From positions 1-64,000 of the forward strand of contig NZ_JACJPO010000045.1 of NCBI RefSeq assembly GCF_014696105.1: DNA of 64,000 bases. The letters run 5' to 3'. Under the pieces are notes generated by a model, which worked only from the letters and a program-made list of their open reading frames with translations, was not told where the DNA came from and did no database searches. Position 1 is the first letter of the stretch. Each line of letters opens with the position of its first letter. Origin of the DNA: Microcoleus sp. FACHB-1515. GTDB taxonomy: Bacteria; Cyanobacteriota; Cyanobacteriia; Elainellales; Elainellaceae. Both the position numbers and the translations under genes were made by a program. Positions 27,574 to 43,025 of the stretch are shown one piece after another.

Positions 27574-28560
27574 CTATTTGATCTGCTGCGGTGTCCAGGT
27601 AGGACCGTCACAGCGCGGACCTTCTGCCGTCCAGACGAGGCGATCGAGACACATCCGCCTGGCCGATCGCTGACTATCCCAAGCATGATAGACAATGTAT
27701 TCTTCGCCATTAGGACTGAGGACGATCGAATTATGACCGGGGCCAAAAACGCGATCGGGAACGGTTCGCAGCACTCGCGCTCCGGTTTCGTTGCCTGCGT
27801 CGGAATAGTCGCCCATGACGCGATCGGCCACACCATAATCAACGCCGTAATCTTCGGTTTCCCAGCGTCCGCTGCTGTAAAAACAGTAGTAGCGCCCTTC
27901 ATGCTTGCGAACGCAGGCTCCTTCGAGCGTATGCCAATCGTAGACGCCGCCGTACATCGATCGATCGGCGAGAAACCGCTGCCAGTTCGATCGCGCCCGC
28001 AGGACAACTTTTGCTTCACCTGCAAGCTCACTCATAGTGACGAGGCGATCGACCATCAGCGCCGTTCCCGCCCGAACTTCGTCATCACTATCCAAAAAAT
28101 CCTGAGCGTAGAACAAATACCACTGCCCATCATCATCGCGAAACGGATGCGGATCGATCGCAAACGGACAGGTACTTGGATCAATTAACGCTTTGCCGCA
28201 GTCCACATAAGCACCAAGCGGGCGATCGCTGGCCGCAACTCGAAGCTGATGATGTTTATCTTCATGCCCAACAGAGTAATAAAGGTAAAACTTGCCGTCT
28301 TCAAACGCAATTTCAGGTGCCCAAAAGTGCGTTCCTAAATCGGCATCGGGACGCTGCAAAGCATTTCCAGCAAACTGCCAGGTGACGAAATCTTCAGAGC
28401 GCAGGAGGGGAAAAACAGGTTGTTTGTGAACGTCTTGGACTGCGCCTTCGGCTTCCGGTTCGCCTGTACCGATCGCGTAGTAAATGCCTTCATGCTGCCA
28501 AACAAACGGATCGGCAAAGTAACCGGAATACACCGGATTTGTGTAGGTACGAACTTCCAT
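27574..28560 (-). CDS. Glycoside hydrolase family 43-like protein
   Basis: 328 residues from ATG 28560 (the longer frame adds four). The five-bladed beta-propeller shows YFADPFVWQHEGIYYAIGTG with the catalytic base Asp, FAIDPHPFRDDDGQWYLFYAQDF with the second Asp, and DWHTLEGACVRKHEGRYYCFYS with the acid Glu. GPGHNSIVLSPNGEEYIVYHAW is the family's GPGH metal/loop motif. No signal peptide, so it should work in the cytoplasm on imported or storage oligosaccharides (arabino- or xylo-type). It lies 21 nt downstream of the PhyH gene and is probably co-transcribed. Confidence 0.92.
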   Translation of the reverse strand: MEVRTYTNPVYSGYFADPFVWQHEGIYYAIGTGEPEAEGAVQDVHKQPVFPLLRSEDFVTWQFAGNALQRPDADLGTHFWAPEIAFEDGKFYLYYSVGHEDKHHQLRVAASDRPLGAYVDCGKALIDPSTCPFAIDPHPFRDDDGQWYLFYAQDFLDSDDEVRAGTALMVDRLVTMSELAGEAKVVLRARSNWQRFLADRSMYGGVYDWHTLEGACVRKHEGRYYCFYSSGRWETEDYGVDYGVADRVMGDYSDAGNETGARVLRTVPDRVFGPGHNSIVLSPNGEEYIVYHAWDSQRSARRMCLDRLVWTAEGPRCDGPTWTPQQIK

Positions 28561-28581
28561 AAATAACCGCAATCAAGCAAA

Positions 28582-29385
28582 CTAATACTTGAAGTTGATG
28601 TAGGTTTCAGTTTTGTCTATCGGCAGTCGATCGACCACTTCGCAGCGCAACATCTGCTGAAGCTGTTCCGGCAGCGATTCGTAATAGTCGCGTGGCAAAG
28701 TCAGTTCAACTTTCGGCGTGTGCAGCCAGTGCATCACGTAGCCCATCACCACCATCGGTCGAGGCTGAGCGGTAGTATTGGGTGAGCCGCGATGCAGCGC
28801 GAAAGGCGATCGAATCATCACATCTCCCGGCTGCATGTAGAATGATTCGATCGCAATTTCACCCGCAGCAATCTTCTCCAATCCCACTTCACGTGGCAGC
28901 AGATGCGTTCCTCGCGCCATCTGAAACGGGCCATTCTCAGCAGTTACTTCGACCAGGGGAAAATTCACGGCCAGCGCATACAGCGGCGTGACAATTTCGT
29001 CAGAGAATAATGGACGAAAATCGCGATGCGTTTCCTGATAGGTTGACCCCTGAAAGGGTGTATCCGTACCAAGCTGTACCATGCGGTATTCCTGATGAAA
29101 AACGCGATCGAGAATACCCAAAATCACCGGATGAGCGAAGACGGAACTATCAGCAAACGGAGCAATCCAAGGCAAGGTTAAATAGTAGCGAGATTGCTCA
29201 CGGGGGGCTAGGCCTCCAGGCTGATTTTGCCGCTGCTCAAACAAATCACCGAATGCTTTTGCCCAGGTTTCGATCAGGTCACGATCGAAAAGATTGCGGA
29301 TGACGCAAATGCCATCGCGGTTGAGATCGAAGGCAAATCGATCGAGGTCTGAAGTCGTGAAAGAATTTTGAAGTGCTTGCACCAT
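28582..29385 (-). CDS. Phytanoyl-CoA dioxygenase (PhyH) family protein
   Basis: 267 residues from ATG 29385. FAFDLNRDGICVIRNLFDRDLIETW is the usual start. YQETHRDFRPLF carries the iron-binding H-x-D, and SPFALHRGSPNTTAQPRPMVVMGY has the distal His and the 2-oxoglutarate-binding Arg. These non-haem Fe(II)/2-oxoglutarate oxygenases hydroxylate small molecules; the substrate is unknown. Upstream gene of a two-gene unit with GH43. Confidence 0.9.
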   Translation of the reverse strand: MVQALQNSFTTSDLDRFAFDLNRDGICVIRNLFDRDLIETWAKAFGDLFEQRQNQPGGLAPREQSRYYLTLPWIAPFADSSVFAHPVILGILDRVFHQEYRMVQLGTDTPFQGSTYQETHRDFRPLFSDEIVTPLYALAVNFPLVEVTAENGPFQMARGTHLLPREVGLEKIAAGEIAIESFYMQPGDVMIRSPFALHRGSPNTTAQPRPMVVMGYVMHWLHTPKVELTLPRDYYESLPEQLQQMLRCEVVDRLPIDKTETYINFKY

Positions 29386-31375: not shown

Positions 31376-32302
31376 ATGACGATCGCAATTATTGTGCATG
31401 GTGGCGCAAAAACAATCAGTGACGATAAAACCCAGGCCAATACAGAAGGATGTTTAACTGCCGTTCAAGCAGGCTGGGAGATTCTACAACGCGGTGGAGA
31501 TGCCAAAGATGCCGTTGAAGCTGCGATTCGCACTTTGGAAGCGGATGCCACGTTCAACGCCAGCATTGGGGCAACGCTCGATCGCGAAGGTCAGGTATAT
31601 CTCGATGCCGGAATGATGGAAAGTAAGGGGCTTCGATGGGGAGGCGTCGCCGCCGTGCAGCGGGTCGCGCATCCGATTTCAGTCGCTCGAAAAATTCTAG
31701 AGAAAAAGTCTTACTTTCTAGTCGCGCATGGGGCAGAACAATTTGCCGAAGAACAAAGCTGTGAAATGTGCGAACCCGACAGCTTGATCAGCGAAGAACA
31801 GCGGCAGATGTGGGAACAAGAACAGATGCCAGAAGACCGCTCCTCAACGGTCGGTTGCGTCGCACTCGACATTCACGGCAATTTGGTGGCTGGAACTTCA
31901 ACGGGCGGTCTGGAAAATCAACCACCGGGGCGCGTTGGCGATACGGCGATCGTGGGTTGCGGCCTCTATGCGGATAGTCGGGGTGCTTGCTCAACCACAG
32001 GTGACGGCGAATCAGTGATTCCGGTTGTGTTGGCAAAAACTGCGGTTGATTTGCTGTCAGGTGATACAGCAAGTCAGGATGGAATTGTTGCCCGTCATCC
32101 AGAACAAGCAGCGCAACAGGCGATCGAAGTATTGAAACAGAAAGTTCCTGGTGAAGCGGGCTGCATTCTGCTCGATCGCGACGGGCGCATGGGCTGGACA
32201 CACAACTCGCAAGACATGGCCGTTGCCTACATGAGCGAGGCATTACATCAGCCTGCTGTCTTCACCTGCAAACAGCAAGAAGCTGTGAATGCGCTGTCAT
32301 GA
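31376..32302 (+). CDS. Isoaspartyl peptidase / plant-type L-asparaginase
   Basis: 308 residues from ATG 31376, which aligns with the family start (TIAIIVHGGAKTI). ILQRGGDAKDAVEAAIRTLE and FNASIGATLDREGQVYLDAGMM belong to the alpha chain. The self-cleavage site is EDRSSTVGCVALD, with Thr as the new N-terminal nucleophile of the beta chain. GRVGDTAIVGCGLYAD follows, the substrate loop. Such Ntn hydrolases cleave beta-aspartyl dipeptides, including the beta-Asp-Arg released from cyanophycin. Its stop overlaps the start of an ATP-grasp gene (ATGA), so synthesis of the two is coupled. Confidence 0.93.
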   Translation: MTIAIIVHGGAKTISDDKTQANTEGCLTAVQAGWEILQRGGDAKDAVEAAIRTLEADATFNASIGATLDREGQVYLDAGMMESKGLRWGGVAAVQRVAHPISVARKILEKKSYFLVAHGAEQFAEEQSCEMCEPDSLISEEQRQMWEQEQMPEDRSSTVGCVALDIHGNLVAGTSTGGLENQPPGRVGDTAIVGCGLYADSRGACSTTGDGESVIPVVLAKTAVDLLSGDTASQDGIVARHPEQAAQQAIEVLKQKVPGEAGCILLDRDGRMGWTHNSQDMAVAYMSEALHQPAVFTCKQQEAVNALS

Positions 32303-33564
32303 TCGCTCAACCATTGACTTTTTTCCAAGGCAATTCGCTCTCGGATTTATTTGCTCAAGACTGCGACGATCGCCATGCATTGATGTTGAACTATCCGGCA
32401 ACAGCAAGTTGGGCAGCTTACCCGAATACGCAGAAGTATTTTCTGCAAGATGGCAGCAGTGAAGCGACGAAAACATCATTCGATAAGATCTGCCAAAAAG
32501 AGCCTTGGAAAAACTTAGCCGTCTTGGGCAATGCGCTAGCTGGAATTGTGATTCGTCGGCCTCAAGATTTGCTGATGCACTACTGGCGCGAGCATTTCGG
32601 CTTCAATTCTGAGCATTTGGAATGGATGGACTGTTCCACTTATCTAGACGATCTCAATCAAAGCGATCGCATCGATCGAGTCATGACTTTATTTCCCTTC
32701 GATCGATTGCGGCCTGAAAAACACGCCGTCCATCCCGATACTCACTACCGTTTGCTCAGTAAAGCAACCCTTGCTCAGCTTGGCGTACCTTGTCCAAATT
32801 ATCAAACCTATCATTTGGATCAAATCAGTCTTGAGCAAATTCCCCTGCCTTCCCAATTTCCTTATTTGATCAAAACATCACATGGACTTTCAGGAGAAGG
32901 AACCTACATCATCCGCAGCCACAGCGATCTCAACTATTGCCTGGAAGAACTGAAGAAATATTTGATCATTCAACTTCTTGAAACAATCATCGTTTCAGAA
33001 TTTGTCAAACACGAAGTTTGCAACTACTGCGTTCAGTTCTACGTCAACAAACAAGGAGAAATTTCTTTAATTGGCGTCACTCAGCAACTCGTCAGTTCTG
33101 AAGGTGAATACTTAGGAGGTGTTATTGACTATACGGATGATTTAAGTCGATTTTCGAAGATGATTGCGGCGATCGCTCGATATGCCCATCAGCAAGGATA
33201 TTTTGGCGTGATTGGCTTTGATGTGTTGGAAGATCGAGACGGGCAACTTTACGCGATCGATGCCAATTTTCGCATCAATGGTTCCACGCCGCTTTGTCTA
33301 CAGCGACATCAGTTGCTGAAGTTGGGTAAGGCGATCGCAAAATACTTCAGCGACTACCGAATGTCAGGAACGCTTGATTCCATTCTCACTACCTTGAAGC
33401 CAGAACTAGCGCGAAAAGACTTTCTGATTCTCTCCGCTTTAGAGAAGGTGAAATATGGCAAAATTTACACGGAAATTTACGGCATTGTCACGGGAGAAAC
33501 GCTTGATAATATGCGGCAAATCGAGCAACATTTGCGCGATCGAGGATTACAGTTAACAAGTTAA
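32299..33564 (+). CDS. ATP-grasp ligase-like protein
   Basis: 421 residues starting in the ATGA overlap. An N-terminal pre-ATP-grasp region (LNYPATASWAAYPNTQKYF; VMTLFPFDRLRPEKHAVHPDTHYRLLSKATLAQLGVPCP) precedes the ATP-grasp core. PYLIKTSHGLSGEGTYIIRS is the ATP-binding loop with Lys and Gly-rich turn, VSEFVKHEVCNYCVQFYV follows, and GVIGFDVLEDRDGQLYAIDANFRINGST has the Asp/Asn metal ligands. The family forms amide or peptide bonds through acyl-phosphates. Pairing with a beta-aspartyl peptidase suggests a beta-linked peptide or peptide tag, but the substrate is unknown. Confidence 0.8.
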   Translation: MIAQPLTFFQGNSLSDLFAQDCDDRHALMLNYPATASWAAYPNTQKYFLQDGSSEATKTSFDKICQKEPWKNLAVLGNALAGIVIRRPQDLLMHYWREHFGFNSEHLEWMDCSTYLDDLNQSDRIDRVMTLFPFDRLRPEKHAVHPDTHYRLLSKATLAQLGVPCPNYQTYHLDQISLEQIPLPSQFPYLIKTSHGLSGEGTYIIRSHSDLNYCLEELKKYLIIQLLETIIVSEFVKHEVCNYCVQFYVNKQGEISLIGVTQQLVSSEGEYLGGVIDYTDDLSRFSKMIAAIARYAHQQGYFGVIGFDVLEDRDGQLYAIDANFRINGSTPLCLQRHQLLKLGKAIAKYFSDYRMSGTLDSILTTLKPELARKDFLILSALEKVKYGKIYTEIYGIVTGETLDNMRQIEQHLRDRGLQLTS

Positions 33565-34502: not shown

Positions 34503-36746
34503 ATGAGTTCAAAGCAAGCTTCACCGCTGGAACTTTGGGGTGGAATTGAATGTACAGTCAATCGCGTCGGCGATCGCTATCTTGATCAGCTAGAGCGCAA
34601 TGGTCATGCGACCAGAATTGAAGACCTCGATCGATTTGCGGCTTTGGGTGTGCAAACGATTCGCTATCCAATTTTGTGGGAGCGCATTGCTCCCAACGGA
34701 CTCGCTCAAGCCAATTGGTCTTGGGCAGATCAGCGGTTAACTCGCCTGCATGATCTGGGCATTCGAGCGATCGCCGGACTCATCCATCATGGCAGCGGCC
34801 CCCGTCACACCAATTTGCTTAATCCAACTTTTCCAGAACAATTAGCCGAATTTGCGTTTGCGGTGGCTCAGCGTTATCCTCGGCTGGAGTATTACACCCC
34901 TGTTAATGAACCGTTAACAACCGCACGTTTTAGCGGCCTGTATGGGCACTGGTATCCGCATGGTCGCGATGATTTGAGCTTCTTCAAAGCATTACTGAAT
35001 CAGTGTCGAGCAACCGTGCTGGCAATGCGGGCAATTCGGCAAGTCAATCCGCGTGCCCAACTGGTGCAAACTGAGGATTTAGGCTCAACACGCAGTACGC
35101 CGTTACTGACCTATCAAGCAGAACTAGAGAACGATCGCCGCTGGCTCTCACTCGATTTGCTGTGTGGCCGCATCGATCGCAATCATCCGCTGTGGCGCTA
35201 TCTACTCGATGCTGGCATTGAAGAAGGTGAATTACTGTGGTTTCAAGACAATCCCTGTCCGCCCGATATCATCGGCATTAATCGCTATGTCTGTAGCGAT
35301 CGCTTCTTGGATGAACGGCTCGATCGCTATCCTGCCCATACGCACGGCGGCAACGGCCAGCATCAATACGCGGATGTGGAAGCGGTTTGGGTCTGTGCGG
35401 AAGGACTCTACGATCATGTCGCGCTGCTGAGGGAAGTGTGGGAGCGTTATCATCGACCGATCGCCATTACCGAGGCGCATCTCGGCTGCACCCGTGAAGA
35501 ACAATTGCGCTGGCTCAAGCAAATTTGGCAGATTGCCCAAACGCTTCGCAATCAAGGCGTTGACTTTCGTGCGGTTGCCGTTTGGTCGCTGCTGGGAACC
35601 TATGACTGGAATAGCCTCGTCACTCGCGATGATGGCTTCTATGAGCCAGGCGTGTTTGATGTGCGATCGCCCCAACCGCGATCAACCGCGATCGCCCAAA
35701 TGGTGCAGTGTTTGACAGCAGGACGATCGTACAACCATCCGCTGCTCAATCTACCGGGATGGTGGCAGCGATCGCAACGCTTGCTCTATCCGCCTGTGCG
35801 CTACACCCCAGAACTCGGAGGTTGGACAGATTTAGATGCAGCGATTTTTAGCACACCGGAAATGCGGCAGGTCAAAGGCATCCACAGGGCAGCGATCGCC
35901 TCAACTCCTCCACTGCTGATCACCGGAGCAACCGGAACATTAGGTCAAGCTTTTGCTCGCATCTGCGAACTGCGCGGCATTCCTTACTATTTACTCTCGC
36001 GTCAGGAAATGGACATCACCCAGCCCAATATTGTTGAGCAGGTGTTGGATGAGTTGCAGCCTTGGGCAGTGGTAAACGCCGCTGGATATGTGCGTGTTGA
36101 TGATGCCGAACGAGAACCGCATTTGTGTCGCCGCATCAATGCAGACGGAGCAGCAATTTTGGCAGGTGCCTGCGCTGAACGCAACGTTGGGCTGGTCAAT
36201 TTTTCTTCTGATCTGGTGTTTAGTGGCGATCGCAATCAGCCGTATCTCGAAAGCGATCCGGTCGCCCCGCTCAACGTCTACGGCCACAGCAAAGCGCAAG
36301 CAGAACGATGGGTGTTGCAGCAGCATCCTTGTTCACTTGTGATTCGCACCAGCGCGTTCTTTGGCCCTTGGGATGAATACAACTTCTTGACAATCGCCCT
36401 GCGTACCATTCAATCGGGACAGGTTTTTGTGGCGGCTGAAGATGCGATCGTCTCTCCCACTTACGTTCCTGATCTGGTCAACGTCAGCCTCGATTTGCTG
36501 ATTGATGGCGAGTGCGGCCTATGGCATTTGGCAAATCCGGGTGCGATCGCCTGGGCAGATTTAGCGCGGGAGGCAGCGACGCTCGCAGGGCTAGACAGCA
36601 GGCGCATTCGAGCTTGTCCTACGAAAGAACTCAACTGGGTTGCGCCTCGCCCTGCCTACAGTGCCTTGACAAGTGAACGCGGGGTTTTGCTGCCGAAGCT
36701 CGATCGAGCAATCGATCGTTACCTGAGCGATCGCATTGCTGGATAG
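34503..36746 (+). CDS. Fusion of GH1-like glycosidase and RmlD-like sugar-nucleotide reductase
   Basis: 747 residues. Residues 1-~440 are a (beta/alpha)8 barrel of glycoside-hydrolase family 1 type: ELWGGIECTVNRVGDRY, YYTPVNEPLTTARFSGLYGHWYPHG (acid/base Glu in the NEP motif) and RPIAITEAHLGC (likely nucleophile Glu, ITEN-like). Residues ~460-747 are a Rossmann short-chain reductase: PPLLITGATGTLGQAFARICE (NAD(P) loop), VVNAAGYVRVDDAE, LVNFSSDLVFSG and YGHSKAQAE (Y-x3-K), as in dTDP-4-dehydrorhamnose reductase. The fusion points to joint action on a rhamnose- or deoxysugar-containing surface glycan. No signal peptide; cytoplasmic. Confidence 0.9.
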   Translation: MSSKQASPLELWGGIECTVNRVGDRYLDQLERNGHATRIEDLDRFAALGVQTIRYPILWERIAPNGLAQANWSWADQRLTRLHDLGIRAIAGLIHHGSGPRHTNLLNPTFPEQLAEFAFAVAQRYPRLEYYTPVNEPLTTARFSGLYGHWYPHGRDDLSFFKALLNQCRATVLAMRAIRQVNPRAQLVQTEDLGSTRSTPLLTYQAELENDRRWLSLDLLCGRIDRNHPLWRYLLDAGIEEGELLWFQDNPCPPDIIGINRYVCSDRFLDERLDRYPAHTHGGNGQHQYADVEAVWVCAEGLYDHVALLREVWERYHRPIAITEAHLGCTREEQLRWLKQIWQIAQTLRNQGVDFRAVAVWSLLGTYDWNSLVTRDDGFYEPGVFDVRSPQPRSTAIAQMVQCLTAGRSYNHPLLNLPGWWQRSQRLLYPPVRYTPELGGWTDLDAAIFSTPEMRQVKGIHRAAIASTPPLLITGATGTLGQAFARICELRGIPYYLLSRQEMDITQPNIVEQVLDELQPWAVVNAAGYVRVDDAEREPHLCRRINADGAAILAGACAERNVGLVNFSSDLVFSGDRNQPYLESDPVAPLNVYGHSKAQAERWVLQQHPCSLVIRTSAFFGPWDEYNFLTIALRTIQSGQVFVAAEDAIVSPTYVPDLVNVSLDLLIDGECGLWHLANPGAIAWADLAREAATLAGLDSRRIRACPTKELNWVAPRPAYSALTSERGVLLPKLDRAIDRYLSDRIAG

Positions 36747-37181
36747 CAACTGAAACGACGCAGAGGTTGAAAATATTGTCTTCACGACGTAACAGCAATC
36801 GTCTGCATTCGATCGCAACCTGATCGGATGCAGACGATCGCTGATTGCAGCAGAAATCGCAATACGGTCTAACCAAACTCCAAAAAGAGAGGAATCAAAT
36901 AGCCGCCAACCTCGAGGGCTATTGAAAAACTGCTCGATCGATTCCTGCTGATCATTGCAGCCATTGCAGTGCAGGCTAAGCGTGAGTTTTTAAAGAAATC
37001 GATTCCGGAATTCCCTCTCTATCTTTCGATAGAGAAGGCAAATAGGCGAGTGTTAGTCATAATGTTTTAGAGCTTGATGGCGATACAAACGTGAATTTAA
37101 GCTTCCACCGTTAAGCCGCCATTTTTCCCTCAAAAGAGTTAAGTCGCCTCTTGGATTTTGGTTTCTAAAAAGGATGATTCA
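36747..37181. other. Leader of the hybrid kinase gene
   Basis: 435 bases with no supported frame. It has a short GATCGAACG/TTCGATCG-like inverted pair around 36800-36830 and AAAAAGGA at about 37168-37175, the ribosome site of the kinase. Confidence 0.3.
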
Positions 37182-40100
37182 ATGACCTCTGCTTCAGCAA
37201 CAACCGATGCCGATCGCCTTGATTTGAAACAGCTTCTCAATGTTTTGACGGAGGTGAAGAAGGGCAACTTCTCTGCGCGGATGCCAATCGAACAGACTGG
37301 CATTGCTGGAAAAATCTCGGATGTGCTCAACGACATCATCGATCGCAACGAGCAGATGACAGCCGAGCTAGAGCGGATCAGTACGGTCGTCGGCAAAGAA
37401 GGCAAAATCAATGAACGCGCCTCGCTCGGCGGCGCGGCGCGTGGCGGCTGGCGATCGGGCATTGAGTCAGTGAACACGCTGATTACTGATTTGATGCAGC
37501 CAACGGCAGAAACCGCACGGGTACTCAGAGCCGTCGCACATGGAGATTTGTCGCAGACGATCGCCACCGAGATCGACGGCAAACCGCTTCAGGGCGAATT
37601 TTTGCAGACGGCGCGAGTGGTCAACACAATGGTCGATCAGCTCAACTCGTTCGCTTCAGAAGTGACCAGAGTGGCGCGGGAAGTCGGAACTGAGGGCAAG
37701 CTGGGCGTGCAGGCCGAAGTTCCTGGTGTGGCGGGAACCTGGAAGGATTTGACCGATTCAGTCAATTCGATGGCGGGCAACTTGACGGCGCAAGTCCGCA
37801 ATATTGCCGAAGTGACAACAGCGGTGGCAAACGGCAATCTCTCGAAGAAGATCACGGTGGATGTGAAAGGCGAAATTCTGGAGTTGAAGAACACGATCAA
37901 CACAATGGTCGATCAGCTCAACTCGTTCGCCTCGGAAGTCACACGAGTAGCGCGAGATGTGGGCAGTGAAGGCAAGCTGGGTGTGCAGGCGGATGTGCGC
38001 GGCGTGGCGGGAACCTGGAAAGACTTGACCGATAGCGTCAACTTCATGGCGGGCAATCTGACGGCGCAAGTCCGCAATATCGCGGAAGTGACGACAGCGG
38101 TGGCGAATGGCGATCTCTCGAAAAAGATCACGGTGAGCGTGAAAGGCGAAATTCTGGAGTTGAAGAACACGGTCAACACGATGGTCGATCAGCTTAACTC
38201 GTTCGCTTCAGAAGTAACGCGAGTGGCGCGGGAAGTCGGAGCAGAAGGCAAGCTGGGCGGACAGGCGGATGTGCGCGGCGTGGCGGGAACCTGGAAGGAT
38301 TTGACCGACAGCGTCAACTCAATGGCGGGTAACTTGACCGGACAGGTGCGGAACATCGCCGAAGTCGCAACAGCGATCGCCAACGGCGACCTGTCGCGCA
38401 AAATTACGGTCGATGTCAAAGGTGAAATTCTTGAACTCAAAAACACGATCAACACAATGGTCGATCAGTTGAGTTCATTCGCCTCGGAAGTGACCAGAGT
38501 GGCGCGGGAAGTGGGAACTGAGGGCAAATTGGGCGTTCAGGCCGAAGTGCGCGGTGTGGCCGGAACTTGGAAGGACTTAACCGATAACGTCAACTTCATG
38601 GCAAGCAACCTGACCGGACAGGTGCGAAACATTGCCGAAGTCGCGACGGCGATCGCCAGCGGCGACCTCTCCAAGAAAATCACCGTGCAGGTCAAGGGCG
38701 AAATTCTCGAACTGAAAAATACGATCAACACAATGGTCGACCAGTTGAGTTCGTTTGCCTCGGAAGTGACTAGAGTGGCGCGGGAAGTCGGCAGTGAAGG
38801 CAAGCTGGGCGTTCAAGCGGATGTCCGGGGCGTTGATGGAACCTGGAAAGATTTGACCGATTCGGTCAACTTCATGGCGGGCAGCTTGACGGCACAAGTC
38901 CGCAACATTGCCACCGTCACAACCGCTGTTGCCAATGGCGATCTATCCAAGAAGATCACGGTTGACGTGAAAGGCGAAATTCTGGAGTTGAAAAATACGA
39001 TCAACACGATGGTCGATCAGCTTAACTCGTTCGCCTCGGAAGTGACCAGAGTGGCGCGAGAGGTCGGAACCGAGGGCAAACTGGGCGTTCAGGCAGAAGT
39101 GCGCGGCGTGGGCGGAACCTGGAAAGACTTAACCGACAACGTTAACTTCATGGCGAGCAGCTTGACCGCACAAGTCCGCAATATCGCGGAAGTGACGACA
39201 GCGGTGGCAAACGGCGACTTGTCGAAGAAGATTACGGTGGACGTGAAGGGCGAAATTCTCGAACTGAAAAACACGATCAACACGATGGTCGATCAGCTTA
39301 GTGCCTTTGCCTCAGAAGTGACCAGAGTGGCGCGGGAAGTGGGAACGGATGGCAAATTAGGCGCACAGGCGTTTGTGCGGGGCGTGGGTGGAACCTGGAA
39401 GGACTTGACCGATAACGTCAACTTCATGGCGAGCAACCTGACCGGACAGGTACGCAACATTGCGGAAGTGACGAAAGCGGTTGCCAATGGCGACTTGTCC
39501 AAGAAGATTACGGTTGACGTGAAGGGCGAAATTCTTGACCTCAAAGACACGATCAACACGATGGTCGATCAGCTCAACTCGTTCGCCTCGGAAGTAACGC
39601 GAGTTGCCCGTGAGGTGGGGTCAGAAGGTAAGCTCGGCGGACAGGCGGAAGTGCGCGGTGTGGCGGGAACCTGGAAAGACTTGACCGACAGCGTTAATCT
39701 GATGGCGGGCAACCTCACGGCTCAGGTACGCGGGATTGCCAAAGTGGTGACAGCCGTTGCAAATGGCGATCTCAAGCGTAAGCTGATGCTGGAGGCGAAG
39801 GGCGAAATCGAAACGCTGGCGGACACGATTAACGAAATGACCGACACGCTGGCAACCTTTGCCGAACAGGTGACGACCGTGGCGCGAGAAGTCGGCATCG
39901 AAGGCAAGCTGGGAGGACAGGCGAAAGTACCTGGTGCATCGGGAACTTGGCGCGATCTAACCGACAACGTCAACGAACTCGCTGCCAACCTCACGACTCA
40001 GGTTCGAGCGATCGCTGAAGTCGCCACCGCCGTGACTAAAGGCGATTTGACTCGATCGATCGCGGTTGAAGCCTTGGGCGAAGTCGCTGCCCTCAAAGAC

Positions 40101-43025
40101 AACATCAACCAGATGATCGCGAACCTGCGCGAAACGACGCAGAAAAACACCGAGCAAGACTGGCTCAAGACAAACTTGGCAAGATTTACGCGAATGCTGC
40201 AAGGTCAGCGCGACCTGGAAACCGTCTCAAAACTGATCTTGTCGGAACTTGCGCCCCTCGTCGCGGCTCAGCAAGGCGTCTTCTACCTGATGGAAACGAC
40301 CGACCATCATTCACCACTGCTCAAACTGCTCAGCAGTTACGCCTACCGCGAACGCAAGCATCTGTCGAACCGCTTCCAATTGGGTGAAGGCATCGTCGGG
40401 CAGTGCGCTTTGGAAAAAGAGCGAATCTTAATCAGCAGCGTTCCCGACGACTACATCAAAATTAGCTCTGGTTTGGGAGAATCTACGCCTGCCAACGTCG
40501 TCGTTTTGCCTGTCGTGTTTGAAGGACAGGTGACAGCCGTAATTGAGCTAGCCTCTTTCCGTCACTTCAGCGAAATTCATCTGAACTTCCTCGATCAGCT
40601 TACCGAAAGTATCGGTATCGTTCTCAATACGATCGCCGCCAGTATGCGAACCGAAGAACTGCTCAAACAGTCACAATCGCTCGCAGAAGAATTGCAGGCG
40701 CAGCAAAAAGAACTGACTGAAACCAACACCCGCCTCGAACAGCAGGCGCAATCGCTCACCGCTTCAGAAGAACTGCTCAAAGAGCAGCAAGAACAGCTAC
40801 AGCAAACGAACGCCGAACTAGAAGAAAAAGCCGAACTGCTTGCAGAGCAAAACCGCGAAGTTGAACGCAAAAATACTGAAATTGAACAGGCACGGCGATC
40901 GCTTGAAGAAAAAGCCGAACAGCTTTCGCTCACTTCGCGCTACAAATCAGAATTCCTCGCGAATATGTCGCACGAACTGCGAACGCCGCTCAACAGCTTG
41001 CTGATCTTAGCGCGACTGCTCTCTGAAAATAGCGGCAATAACTTAACTGAGAAACAGGTCGAATATGCTCGGACAATTTACTCGTCTGGCAACGATTTGT
41101 TAGCGCTAATTAATGACATTCTCGACCTGGCAAAGATCGAGTCGGGCACGATGTCGGTGGACGTGGATCAAATTCTATTTAACGACTTGAGAGAATATCT
41201 CGATCGCACCTTTAGCCAAACGGCTCAAGAGAAAAAACTCAACTTCTCGATCGACCTTGATCCACAGCTACCGCGATCGATCGACAGCGATTCAAAGCGT
41301 CTCCAGCAAGTACTAAAAAACCTGCTCGCCAACGCATTCAAATTCACAGAAAAAGGACAAGTCAAACTAGAAATTCGTACAGTCACGAGTGGATGGAGTG
41401 CTGATCACAACACGCTCAATCGTGCCGATCGCGTCATTGCCTTCTCTGTGATCGATACAGGCATCGGCATCGCGCCCGACAAGCAACAAATTATCTTTGA
41501 AGCTTTCCAGCAGGCGGACGGCACAACCAGCCGTCGATACGGAGGCACAGGTTTAGGTTTATCAATCAGTCGCGAAATCACTCGACTTTTGGGCGGTGAA
41601 TTGCGACTCGTCAGTACATTAGGCCGAGGCAGCACCTTTACGCTTTATCTGCCCCAAACCTACCTATTACCAGAAACGAACCCTCAAGAAACACAGAGCA
41701 AAAATTCAGGTCACTTTATTAGCATTCGTCGGGAAACGTTGAATCAAGATCGTCTGACCGACATCGCGATCGCTCCAATTTCATCTTTTGCTGAATCGAA
41801 AATCAATGACGATCGCGAAACCATTCAAGCAGGCGATCAGGTGCTGCTGATCATCGAAGATGATGACAATTTTGCTCAGATTTTGCTGGATATGGCGCGA
41901 CAGCAGGGATTCAAAGGCATTGTTGCCCATCGCGGCGATTTGGGCGTCGCGATGGCGCGTGAATTCAAACCTGCCGCCATCATGCTCGATATTCGTCTTC
42001 CGGCAATGGACGGCTGGATGGTGCTCGATCGCCTCAAGCACGACCCCGCCACACGCCACATTCCTGTGCACACCATGTCAGTTGAAGACGGACAGCAGCG
42101 CAGTTTAAAACAGGGCGCGATCGCTTATTTACAAAAGCCTATCAGTAGCGAAATGCTGTCTGCTGCACTCAGCAACATCAAGCAGTTCATCGAACGTCCA
42201 GTCAGGCGTTTATTGATTGTTGAAGACGATGAAATTCAGCGCAGCAGCATTGCAGATTTGATTGGCAGTGGCGATGTCTCCAGCACTGCGGTCGGGACAG
42301 GAGCCGCCGCCCTCGAAGCTTTGAAGACAGGCCACTATGACTGTATTGTGCTGGATTTAGGCTTGCCAGACATGACGGGATTTGAACTCATTGAGCGCAT
42401 TAAGCAAGAAGCAAATCTACGCTTTCTTCCCATCATTGTTTACACCGGAAAAGACCTGACGCCGCAAGAAGAAACTGAACTGCGGCGAGTATCTGAAACC
42501 ATCATTGTAAAAGATGTGCGATCGCCAGAACGTCTCCTCGATGAAACGGCTTTGTTCTTGCATCGCGTTCAGGCAAACTTGCCCGCTTCACAGCGGCAAA
42601 TGCTAGAAAGCCTGTACCAAAACGACCCAATTTTAGCAGGCAAAAAAGTTTTAATTATTGATGACGATGTACGGAATATCTTCGCGCTCACCAGCCTGCT
42701 AGAACACTATCAAATTGAAGTTTCTTACGCAGAAAATGGACAAGATGGCATTGTAGCATTGCAAAATCAGCCTGATATCAACGTTGCACTCGTCGATATC
42801 ATGATGCCAGAAATGGACGGCTATGAAACAATGCGTACTATTCGCCAGATGGAGCAGTTTAAGCAACTGCCAATGATCGCATTGACGGCCAAAGCAATGA
42901 AGGGCGATCGCGAAAAATGCCTTGAAGCAGGAGCCTCTGACTATATTACAAAGCCAGTTGATATTGAGCAGCTACTCTCTCTCCTGCGCGTTTGGCTCTA
43001 CTCGCGATCAGAATCAGCGCTGTAA
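37182..43025 (+). CDS. Giant soluble multi-HAMP hybrid histidine kinase with three receiver domains
   Basis: 1,947 residues from ATG 37182 (AAGGA seven bases upstream; the longer frame is not needed). No membrane segment or PAS domain. Residues ~20-145 are HAMP-like; ~148-975 contain nine 92-residue units ([52 protein letters not shown]). A GAF domain (~1010-1155) and a coiled coil (~1160-1255) follow, then HisKA with [14 protein letters not shown] (phospho-His 1264) and HATPase ending [10 protein letters not shown] (~1454). Receiver Asp residues are at 1603, 1725 and 1872. The plan resembles fungal group III (Nik1/Hog1-pathway) kinases, whose HAMP arrays sense osmotic stress. Nearby compatible-solute import genes at 52264-56574 make an osmotic role plausible but unproven. 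Confidence 0.95.
37621..40000 (+). repeat. Nine tandem 276-bp repeats inside the kinase gene
   Basis: The block starting TCAACACAATGGTCGATCAG occurs at 37621 and 37897 and so on at a 276-bp period. Units are near-identical in protein and highly similar in DNA, with the last two the most diverged, so recombination could change copy number. Confidence 0.85.

Follow-up and report, generated by a model that had tools for sequence, protein, structure and literature searches.

The window analysed here, a stretch of 64,000 nucleotides from a cyanobacterial assembly of 5.8 Mb in 96 contigs, contains two overlapping genes that encode an isoaspartyl peptidase, called ASP2 in the following, and an LdmS-like ATP-grasp ligase. 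The preliminary description had reported both genes together with an ATGA overlap, and their coordinates and strand were confirmed; both proteins pass the respective Pfam cut-off. The features are as follows:

31376..32302, plus strand: ASP2, isoaspartyl peptidase / plant-type asparaginase of 308 aa (PF01112, 260.7 bits; start matches that of its relatives; catalytic and Asp-binding residues present)
31847..31849, plus strand: codon for the predicted nucleophile of ASP2, Thr158 (conserved as Thr in 52 of 52 aligned relatives; spacing matches that of the IaaA catalytic Thr)
32003..32005, plus strand: codon of Asp210, an acidic residue common to ASP2 and the cyanophycin-operon clade in the alignments
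32299..32302, plus strand: ATGA in the sequence, where the ASP2 stop overlaps the ligase start
32299..33564, plus strand: LdmS-like ATP-grasp ligase of 421 aa (PF02655, 34.6 bits; LdmS is the best NCBIfam model and 7r8q the closest solved structure)
34503..36746, plus strand: GH1-RmlD fusion (PF00232 and PF04321), a recurrent neighbour of ASP2 that probably lies outside the pair

On the 5' side the pair is flanked by genes for the 20 kD subunit of NADH dehydrogenase and a pentapeptide-repeat protein, and on the 3' side by genes for a 227-aa protein with no confident family and the GH1-RmlD fusion. The scanned flanks as a whole comprise these four, a PhyH and a GH43 protein and a histidine kinase. 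Scans for promoters and terminators revealed nothing above chance. The genome encodes CphA1 and two cyanophycinases; the cphA (CphA1) and cyanophycinase (CphB) genes are located on contigs C58 and C3, apart from the pair, and neither kind of gene was found among the scanned neighbours. The pair is therefore not simply a cyanophycin operon, and the reading as a cyanophycin operon proper was ruled out.

Linkage and co-occurrence of peptidase and ligase

The contigs of named genomes were scanned with an alignment of 12 ligases, and the best 80 of 105 relatives were kept; all of them come from cyanobacteria, mostly filamentous ones. An ASP2 gene is present in the fetched flanks of 46 of these 80 loci, on the same strand every time, and is located upstream of the ligase in 39 cases and downstream of it in the other 7. 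The 46 include two partial cases: L025 has a decayed ASP2 beside an intact ligase, and L039 is truncated by a contig end. As several of the 34 loci without ASP2 have short flanks, 46 is a lower bound. The pairing, on whose conservation the preliminary description had made its reading depend, is thus conserved; it is real, widespread in cyanobacteria and far above chance.

A tree of 81 ligases requires 21 changes among the states upstream, downstream and absent, fewer of which are forced by well-supported branches. Linkage was therefore gained, lost or inverted more than once. The related loci L078 and L082 have the same neighbours with ASP2 between them in just one, and a Gloeothece plasmid carries the pair in reversed order, ligase then peptidase. 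In five loci (L069, L071, L073, L077 and L084) a 79-aa HflX-like remnant lies just 5' of the ligase, in the place that HflX plus ASP2 occupy in related Nostoc loci; most of these two genes was probably lost there in a single deletion.

For counts over whole genomes, a protein was taken as ASP2 when at least 60% identical to that of the window; the peptidase matches that came next and passed the cut-offs reach at most 45% (one short match) or, over the full length, at most 41%. Within the window's order (36 genomes) the ligase occurs in 13 and ASP2 in 9 genomes, in a sample spread evenly over the phylum (386 genomes) in 16 and 9, and in one large family sampled around genome G201 (217 genomes) in 86 and 49. 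In the union of the three samples the ligase is present in 106 genomes and ASP2 in 63, and the co-occurrence check proposed in the preliminary description showed that 63 of 63 ASP2 genomes carry the ligase. Conversely, 43 of the 106 ligase genomes have no ASP2. These counts include fragments or split matches (ASP2 of G416; ligases of G431, G477, G549, G587 and G592) as well as the ligase of G058, which is interrupted by stops. Fisher tests of ASP2 against the ligase gave p values of 2e-25 for the family, 7.6e-6 for the order and 2.4e-14 for the phylum, which ignore phylogeny and come from non-independent samples. The ligase gene is located within 5 kb of ASP2, always on the same strand, in 49 of the 63 genomes. 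The remaining 14 are unlinked; in three of them both genes share a contig at a distance of 3.7 to 4.3 Mb, and no ligase gene was found in any of the 14 regions fetched around an unlinked ASP2.

The GH1-RmlD gene was used as a control. Of the 217 family genomes 68 carry it, and 12 of these 68 have no ligase, compared with 0 of the 49 that have ASP2. The dependence of ASP2 on the ligase persists in the strata with CphA2, with GH1-RmlD, without GH1-RmlD, and with CphA2 and no GH1-RmlD. ASP2 depends on the ligase one way, and not vice versa. This pattern fits a dedicated hydrolase of the ligase product better than a supplier of the ligase substrate. A CphA2-like gene was found in 13 of 13 and 86 of 86 ligase genomes in two samples; it is common without the ligase too. 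Since the control is nearly as strict (67 of 68 GH1-RmlD genomes have the CphA2-like gene), this association was given little weight and a CphA2 dependence of the ligase was set aside. The genome studied here encodes a CphA2-like protein of 636 aa on contig C30 (L148:970-2877). The structures 8fxh and 7ta5, which we take to be CphA2, are named in the PDB as RimK domain-containing protein and glutathione synthase.

The fixed stoichiometry read from the ATGA overlap in the preliminary description found no support: the overlap is a local feature of this genome, the two genes sometimes stand in the opposite order, and in 14 of 63 genomes they are unlinked. Measured between match ends with stop codons excluded, the spacing exceeds 100 bases in 31 of the 49 linked genomes, and just two of them, the window's own and another with -4, have a spacing of zero or less. 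As spacing, order and linkage all vary, the overlap was ruled out as a general stoichiometry device.

Part of the co-occurrence signal may come from a shared gene island, since ASP2 also co-occurs with GH1-RmlD (42 of 49 ASP2 genomes of the family versus 68 of 217 overall). Leptolyngbya-like and Nostoc-like loci repeatedly have GH1-RmlD close to ASP2, and in 6 genomes with the ligase elsewhere ASP2 is still 1.3 to 5.4 kb from GH1-RmlD. Many members of the sampled family have a longer island with Glf, GH1-RmlD, GalE, HflX, ASP2, the ligase, a hemerythrin-domain protein and others. The clusters called HflX, GalE and Glf are presumably these proteins, as judged by recognition; Pfam gives GTPase domains for the HflX cluster, and one Deinococcus record names glf. 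The island allows for a larger system around the pair, perhaps a stress-related one, and keeps alive the explanation by hitchhiking discussed below.

Relatives of the two proteins

The ligase scores 34.6 bits with PF02655 (ATP-grasp_3; cut-off 23.2). Its top NCBIfam model is LdmS (NF047900) with 95.6 bits, which is far below the equivalog cut-off of 475, and the cyanophycin synthetase model TIGR02068 is absent among the families listed at E 0.1 or better. With a profile of 33 ligases, the sole PDB matches at E 0.01 or better were 7r8p/7r8q (4e-19), which we take to be LdmS structures. The predicted structure of the ligase (pLDDT 82.6, pTM 0.84) aligns to 7r8q with a Z score of 32.5 and an rmsd of 3.6 over 369 residues, at 22% identity over the fold. 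LdmS ranks first in both fold searches; in the one that gave this alignment it is followed by 3wvq (Z 25.4), the ATP-grasp peptide ligase 8ynd (Z 24.3) and BesA (Z 22.9). The closest known relative in both sequence and fold is thus LdmS (SAOUHSC_02373, L-aspartate--L-methionine ligase), and both proteins contain the conserved core motifs NYCVQF, GFD and AID.NFR.NGST. By its best fold and profile match the ligase qualifies for the broader LdmS-like ATP-grasp group, and because profile search and fold matches both point there, it most likely belongs with the amino-acid ligases of the LdmS group. From this kinship aspartate would be predicted as its acyl donor. The product of LdmS is reportedly an ordinary alpha-linked Asp-Met dipeptide, a bond that ASP2 should not cut.

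In the single neighbourhood of a Staphylococcus LdmS-like gene that was viewed, no peptidase of the ASP2 kind is present, whereas the ligase studied here has one adjoining. This gene, on a plasmid of Staphylococcus gallinarum (L098), lies amid genes for a general stress protein, a manganese catalase and a GlsB-family protein. On a plasmid of Gemmobacter aquarius (L096) a distant LdmS-like gene has a 4-base overlap with a GNAT acetyltransferase gene, which may hint at an acetylated dipeptide.

ASP2 matches PF01112 with 260.7 bits (cut-off 27) and stays below the cut-off of the equivalog for the beta-aspartyl-peptidase of the E. coli type (NF007589; 133.4 of 567 bits). The alignment was matched against the active-site residues named for IaaA in PMC10206079, and T158, T176, R186, D189, T190, T208 and G209 are all present. 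By its spacing to the residues named there, Thr158 is the counterpart of the catalytic Thr of IaaA, and it is Thr in 52 of 52 aligned relatives. Self-cleavage and beta-aspartyl hydrolysis are predicted from these intact residues. In 26 of 26 ASP2 proteins (and in 17 of 17 of those in the tree alignment) Asp stands at position 210, which adjoins the Thr-Gly that binds the substrate; the position is acidic in 13 of 14 cyanophycin-operon relatives versus 0 of 21 others. An acidic residue here weakly suggests a basic partner such as Arg, Lys or similar, weakly because the predicted ASP2 structure was poor (pLDDT 54) and left unused. The PDB matches of ASP2 include asparaginases and glycosylasparaginases, both of which belong to PF01112. 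A second PF01112 gene of the same genome (contig C32), of a type found across cyanobacteria, encodes an ordinary IaaA / plant-type asparaginase that is about 33% identical to ASP2 and shares its family and catalytic residues. The ordinary cyanobacterial copies differ in having Ile at position 210 (8 of 8), and, unlike ASP2, they are carried by many genomes without the ligase.

The closest non-cyanobacterial relatives of ASP2, obtained in a search of plasmids, show 38-46% identity. In 12 of 12 inspected (H9-H20; H21, another record from the same species as H20, was left out) the peptidase gene is located directly between cphA and cyanophycinase. Among six further relatives at 34-36%, a Legionella adelaidensis gene lies beside a Mur-ligase and a cyanophycinase gene, and the other five do not. 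Both ASP2 (17 rows) and the cphA-operon group (12 rows) form supported groups in the tree; joined with L130, which adjoins CphA and CphB genes, they reach 93/74. The clade of ASP2 and the cphA-operon group is supported with 97/95 once the long-branch rows L130 and L124 are removed; with both retained, the split of these 29 rows from the rest has 79/29. The trees show ASP2 as a descendant of the cyanophycin-operon peptidase clade, its sister group being the peptidases of the cphA-peptidase-cyanophycinase operons on plasmids of Deinococcus, rhizobia, Sphingobium and Pelagibacterium. These keep the catalytic residues of ASP2, except that Ser replaces Thr208 in 11 of 12; their residue 210 is mostly acidic. 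Their operons pair the peptidase with cyanophycin synthetase and cyanophycinase, whereas ASP2 is paired with a small LdmS-like ligase. IaaA enzymes of cyanophycin clusters are described as still promiscuous in PMC10206079, so ancestry alone leaves the substrate of ASP2 unfixed.

Proposed function of the pair

Gene structure, conserved pairing, one-way dependence, ancestry and intact catalytic residues are established by the above analyses. As an explanation of them we propose that the pair is a make-and-break module dedicated to one soluble compound, an aspartyl dipeptide that the LdmS-like ligase makes and ASP2 recycles, and we consider the chances of this reading to be about even. The ligase would activate a carboxylate of aspartate with ATP and join it to an amine partner, and ASP2 would hydrolyse the resulting beta-aspartyl bond, giving back aspartate and the partner. 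As aspartate is common to an Asp ligase and a beta-aspartyl peptidase, an aspartyl isopeptide would be the simplest joint compound. That both enzymes act on one common compound is what we infer; its linkage is probably beta, and a basic partner (Arg, Lys or similar) seems rather more probable than another one. Against this reading stand the alpha bond reported for LdmS, the low LdmS score of the ligase, the 79/29 support of the ASP2 grouping with the long branches retained, the promiscuity of IaaA enzymes, the kinship among the sampled genomes and the co-occurrence of ASP2 with GH1-RmlD. The beta-aspartyl or cyanophycin-like metabolite suggested in the preliminary description stands as a reasonable guess, given the kinship of the ligase to LdmS and the origin of ASP2 from the cyanophycin-operon clade. 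In a more specific and unlikely form, the ligase would join free amino acids directly into beta-Asp-Arg, or into a basic analogue of it, by a route around CphA1, and ASP2 would be the private hydrolase of this dipeptide. The dipeptide could then be a soluble nitrogen carrier, a stress solute or a feed for polymerisation by CphA2, and the private route would form a second, polymer-independent branch of cyanophycin metabolism.

The pair could also be read as a converter from the storage polymer to another peptide, with no cycle: ASP2 would split beta-Asp-Arg derived from cyanophycin, and the ligase would turn the freed Asp (or Arg) into a different, alpha-linked dipeptide. The grouping of ASP2 with cyanophycin-operon peptidases, the CphA1 and two cyanophycinase genes of the genome, the CphA2-like gene in all ligase genomes of two samples (86/86 and 13/13) and the naming of LdmS as an aspartate-methionine ligase agree with such sequential use. 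We nevertheless regard it as unlikely, as an ordinary peptidase is already there to handle cyanophycin dipeptides, the association with CphA2 is weak next to the control and a supply role needs no strict dependence of ASP2 on the ligase. A supply of aspartate to the ligase by ASP2 acting as L-asparaginase or as amidase of N4-substituted asparagine would be in line with the asparaginases and glycosylasparaginases in its family and among its PDB matches; with cyanophycin-operon peptidases as its sister group and 43 of 106 ligase genomes lacking ASP2, it appears quite improbable.

The two genes might have no joint pathway and ride together in an island whose genes concern stress or the cell envelope (HflX, hemerythrin, GH1-RmlD, GalE, Glf). 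The proximity of ASP2 to GH1-RmlD in the family around G201, including the 6 genomes with the ligase elsewhere, speaks for this explanation, but 12 of 68 GH1-RmlD genomes have no ligase, against 0 of 49 ASP2 genomes, and the pair is kept in other neighbourhoods and, in reversed order, on the Gloeothece plasmid. Hitchhiking is therefore rather improbable in our estimation.

Returning to the make-and-break module, an operon with a comparable arrangement is that of Anbu, in which, according to PMC6376114, an Ntn hydrolase gene adjoins an ATP-grasp gene as in our pair, but Anbu is proteasome-like and its operon adds alphaE and transglutaminase-like genes. Neither of these two was found among the scanned flanks of the pair. 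In the system of glutathione and gamma-glutamyl transpeptidase, an ATP-grasp ligase builds a side-chain-linked peptide that an Ntn hydrolase opens; its enzymes are unrelated to those of the pair and handle glutamyl instead of aspartyl compounds, which makes it an analogy only. In the literature searched, mostly outside subscription papers, neither the pair nor the dependence of ASP2 on the ligase was found described, and the interest of the system lies in this strict dependence together with a directly testable prediction. Cyanophycin dipeptides are a major nitrogen currency in these organisms, and their metabolism would gain a branch through a conserved gene pair that seemingly builds and splits an aspartyl dipeptide independently of the known synthetase. 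The pair points to a small aspartate-containing metabolite, so far unstudied, that cyanobacteria would make and recycle.

Further genes in the window

On the minus strand (27574-29385) a gene for a PhyH-family oxygenase adjoins that of the GH43 protein, and L094 has the same PhyH and GH43 neighbours beside its pair. PhyH, a possible third member of the module, occurs in 6 of 81 loci and falls into two subgroups that are 42 to 45% identical to each other; a protein of the second subgroup is encoded next to ASP2 or to the ligase in L050, L058, L065 and L095. The histidine kinase (37158-43025) is a hybrid protein of 1955 aa with 9 to 10 HAMP stretches, GAF and three receiver domains.
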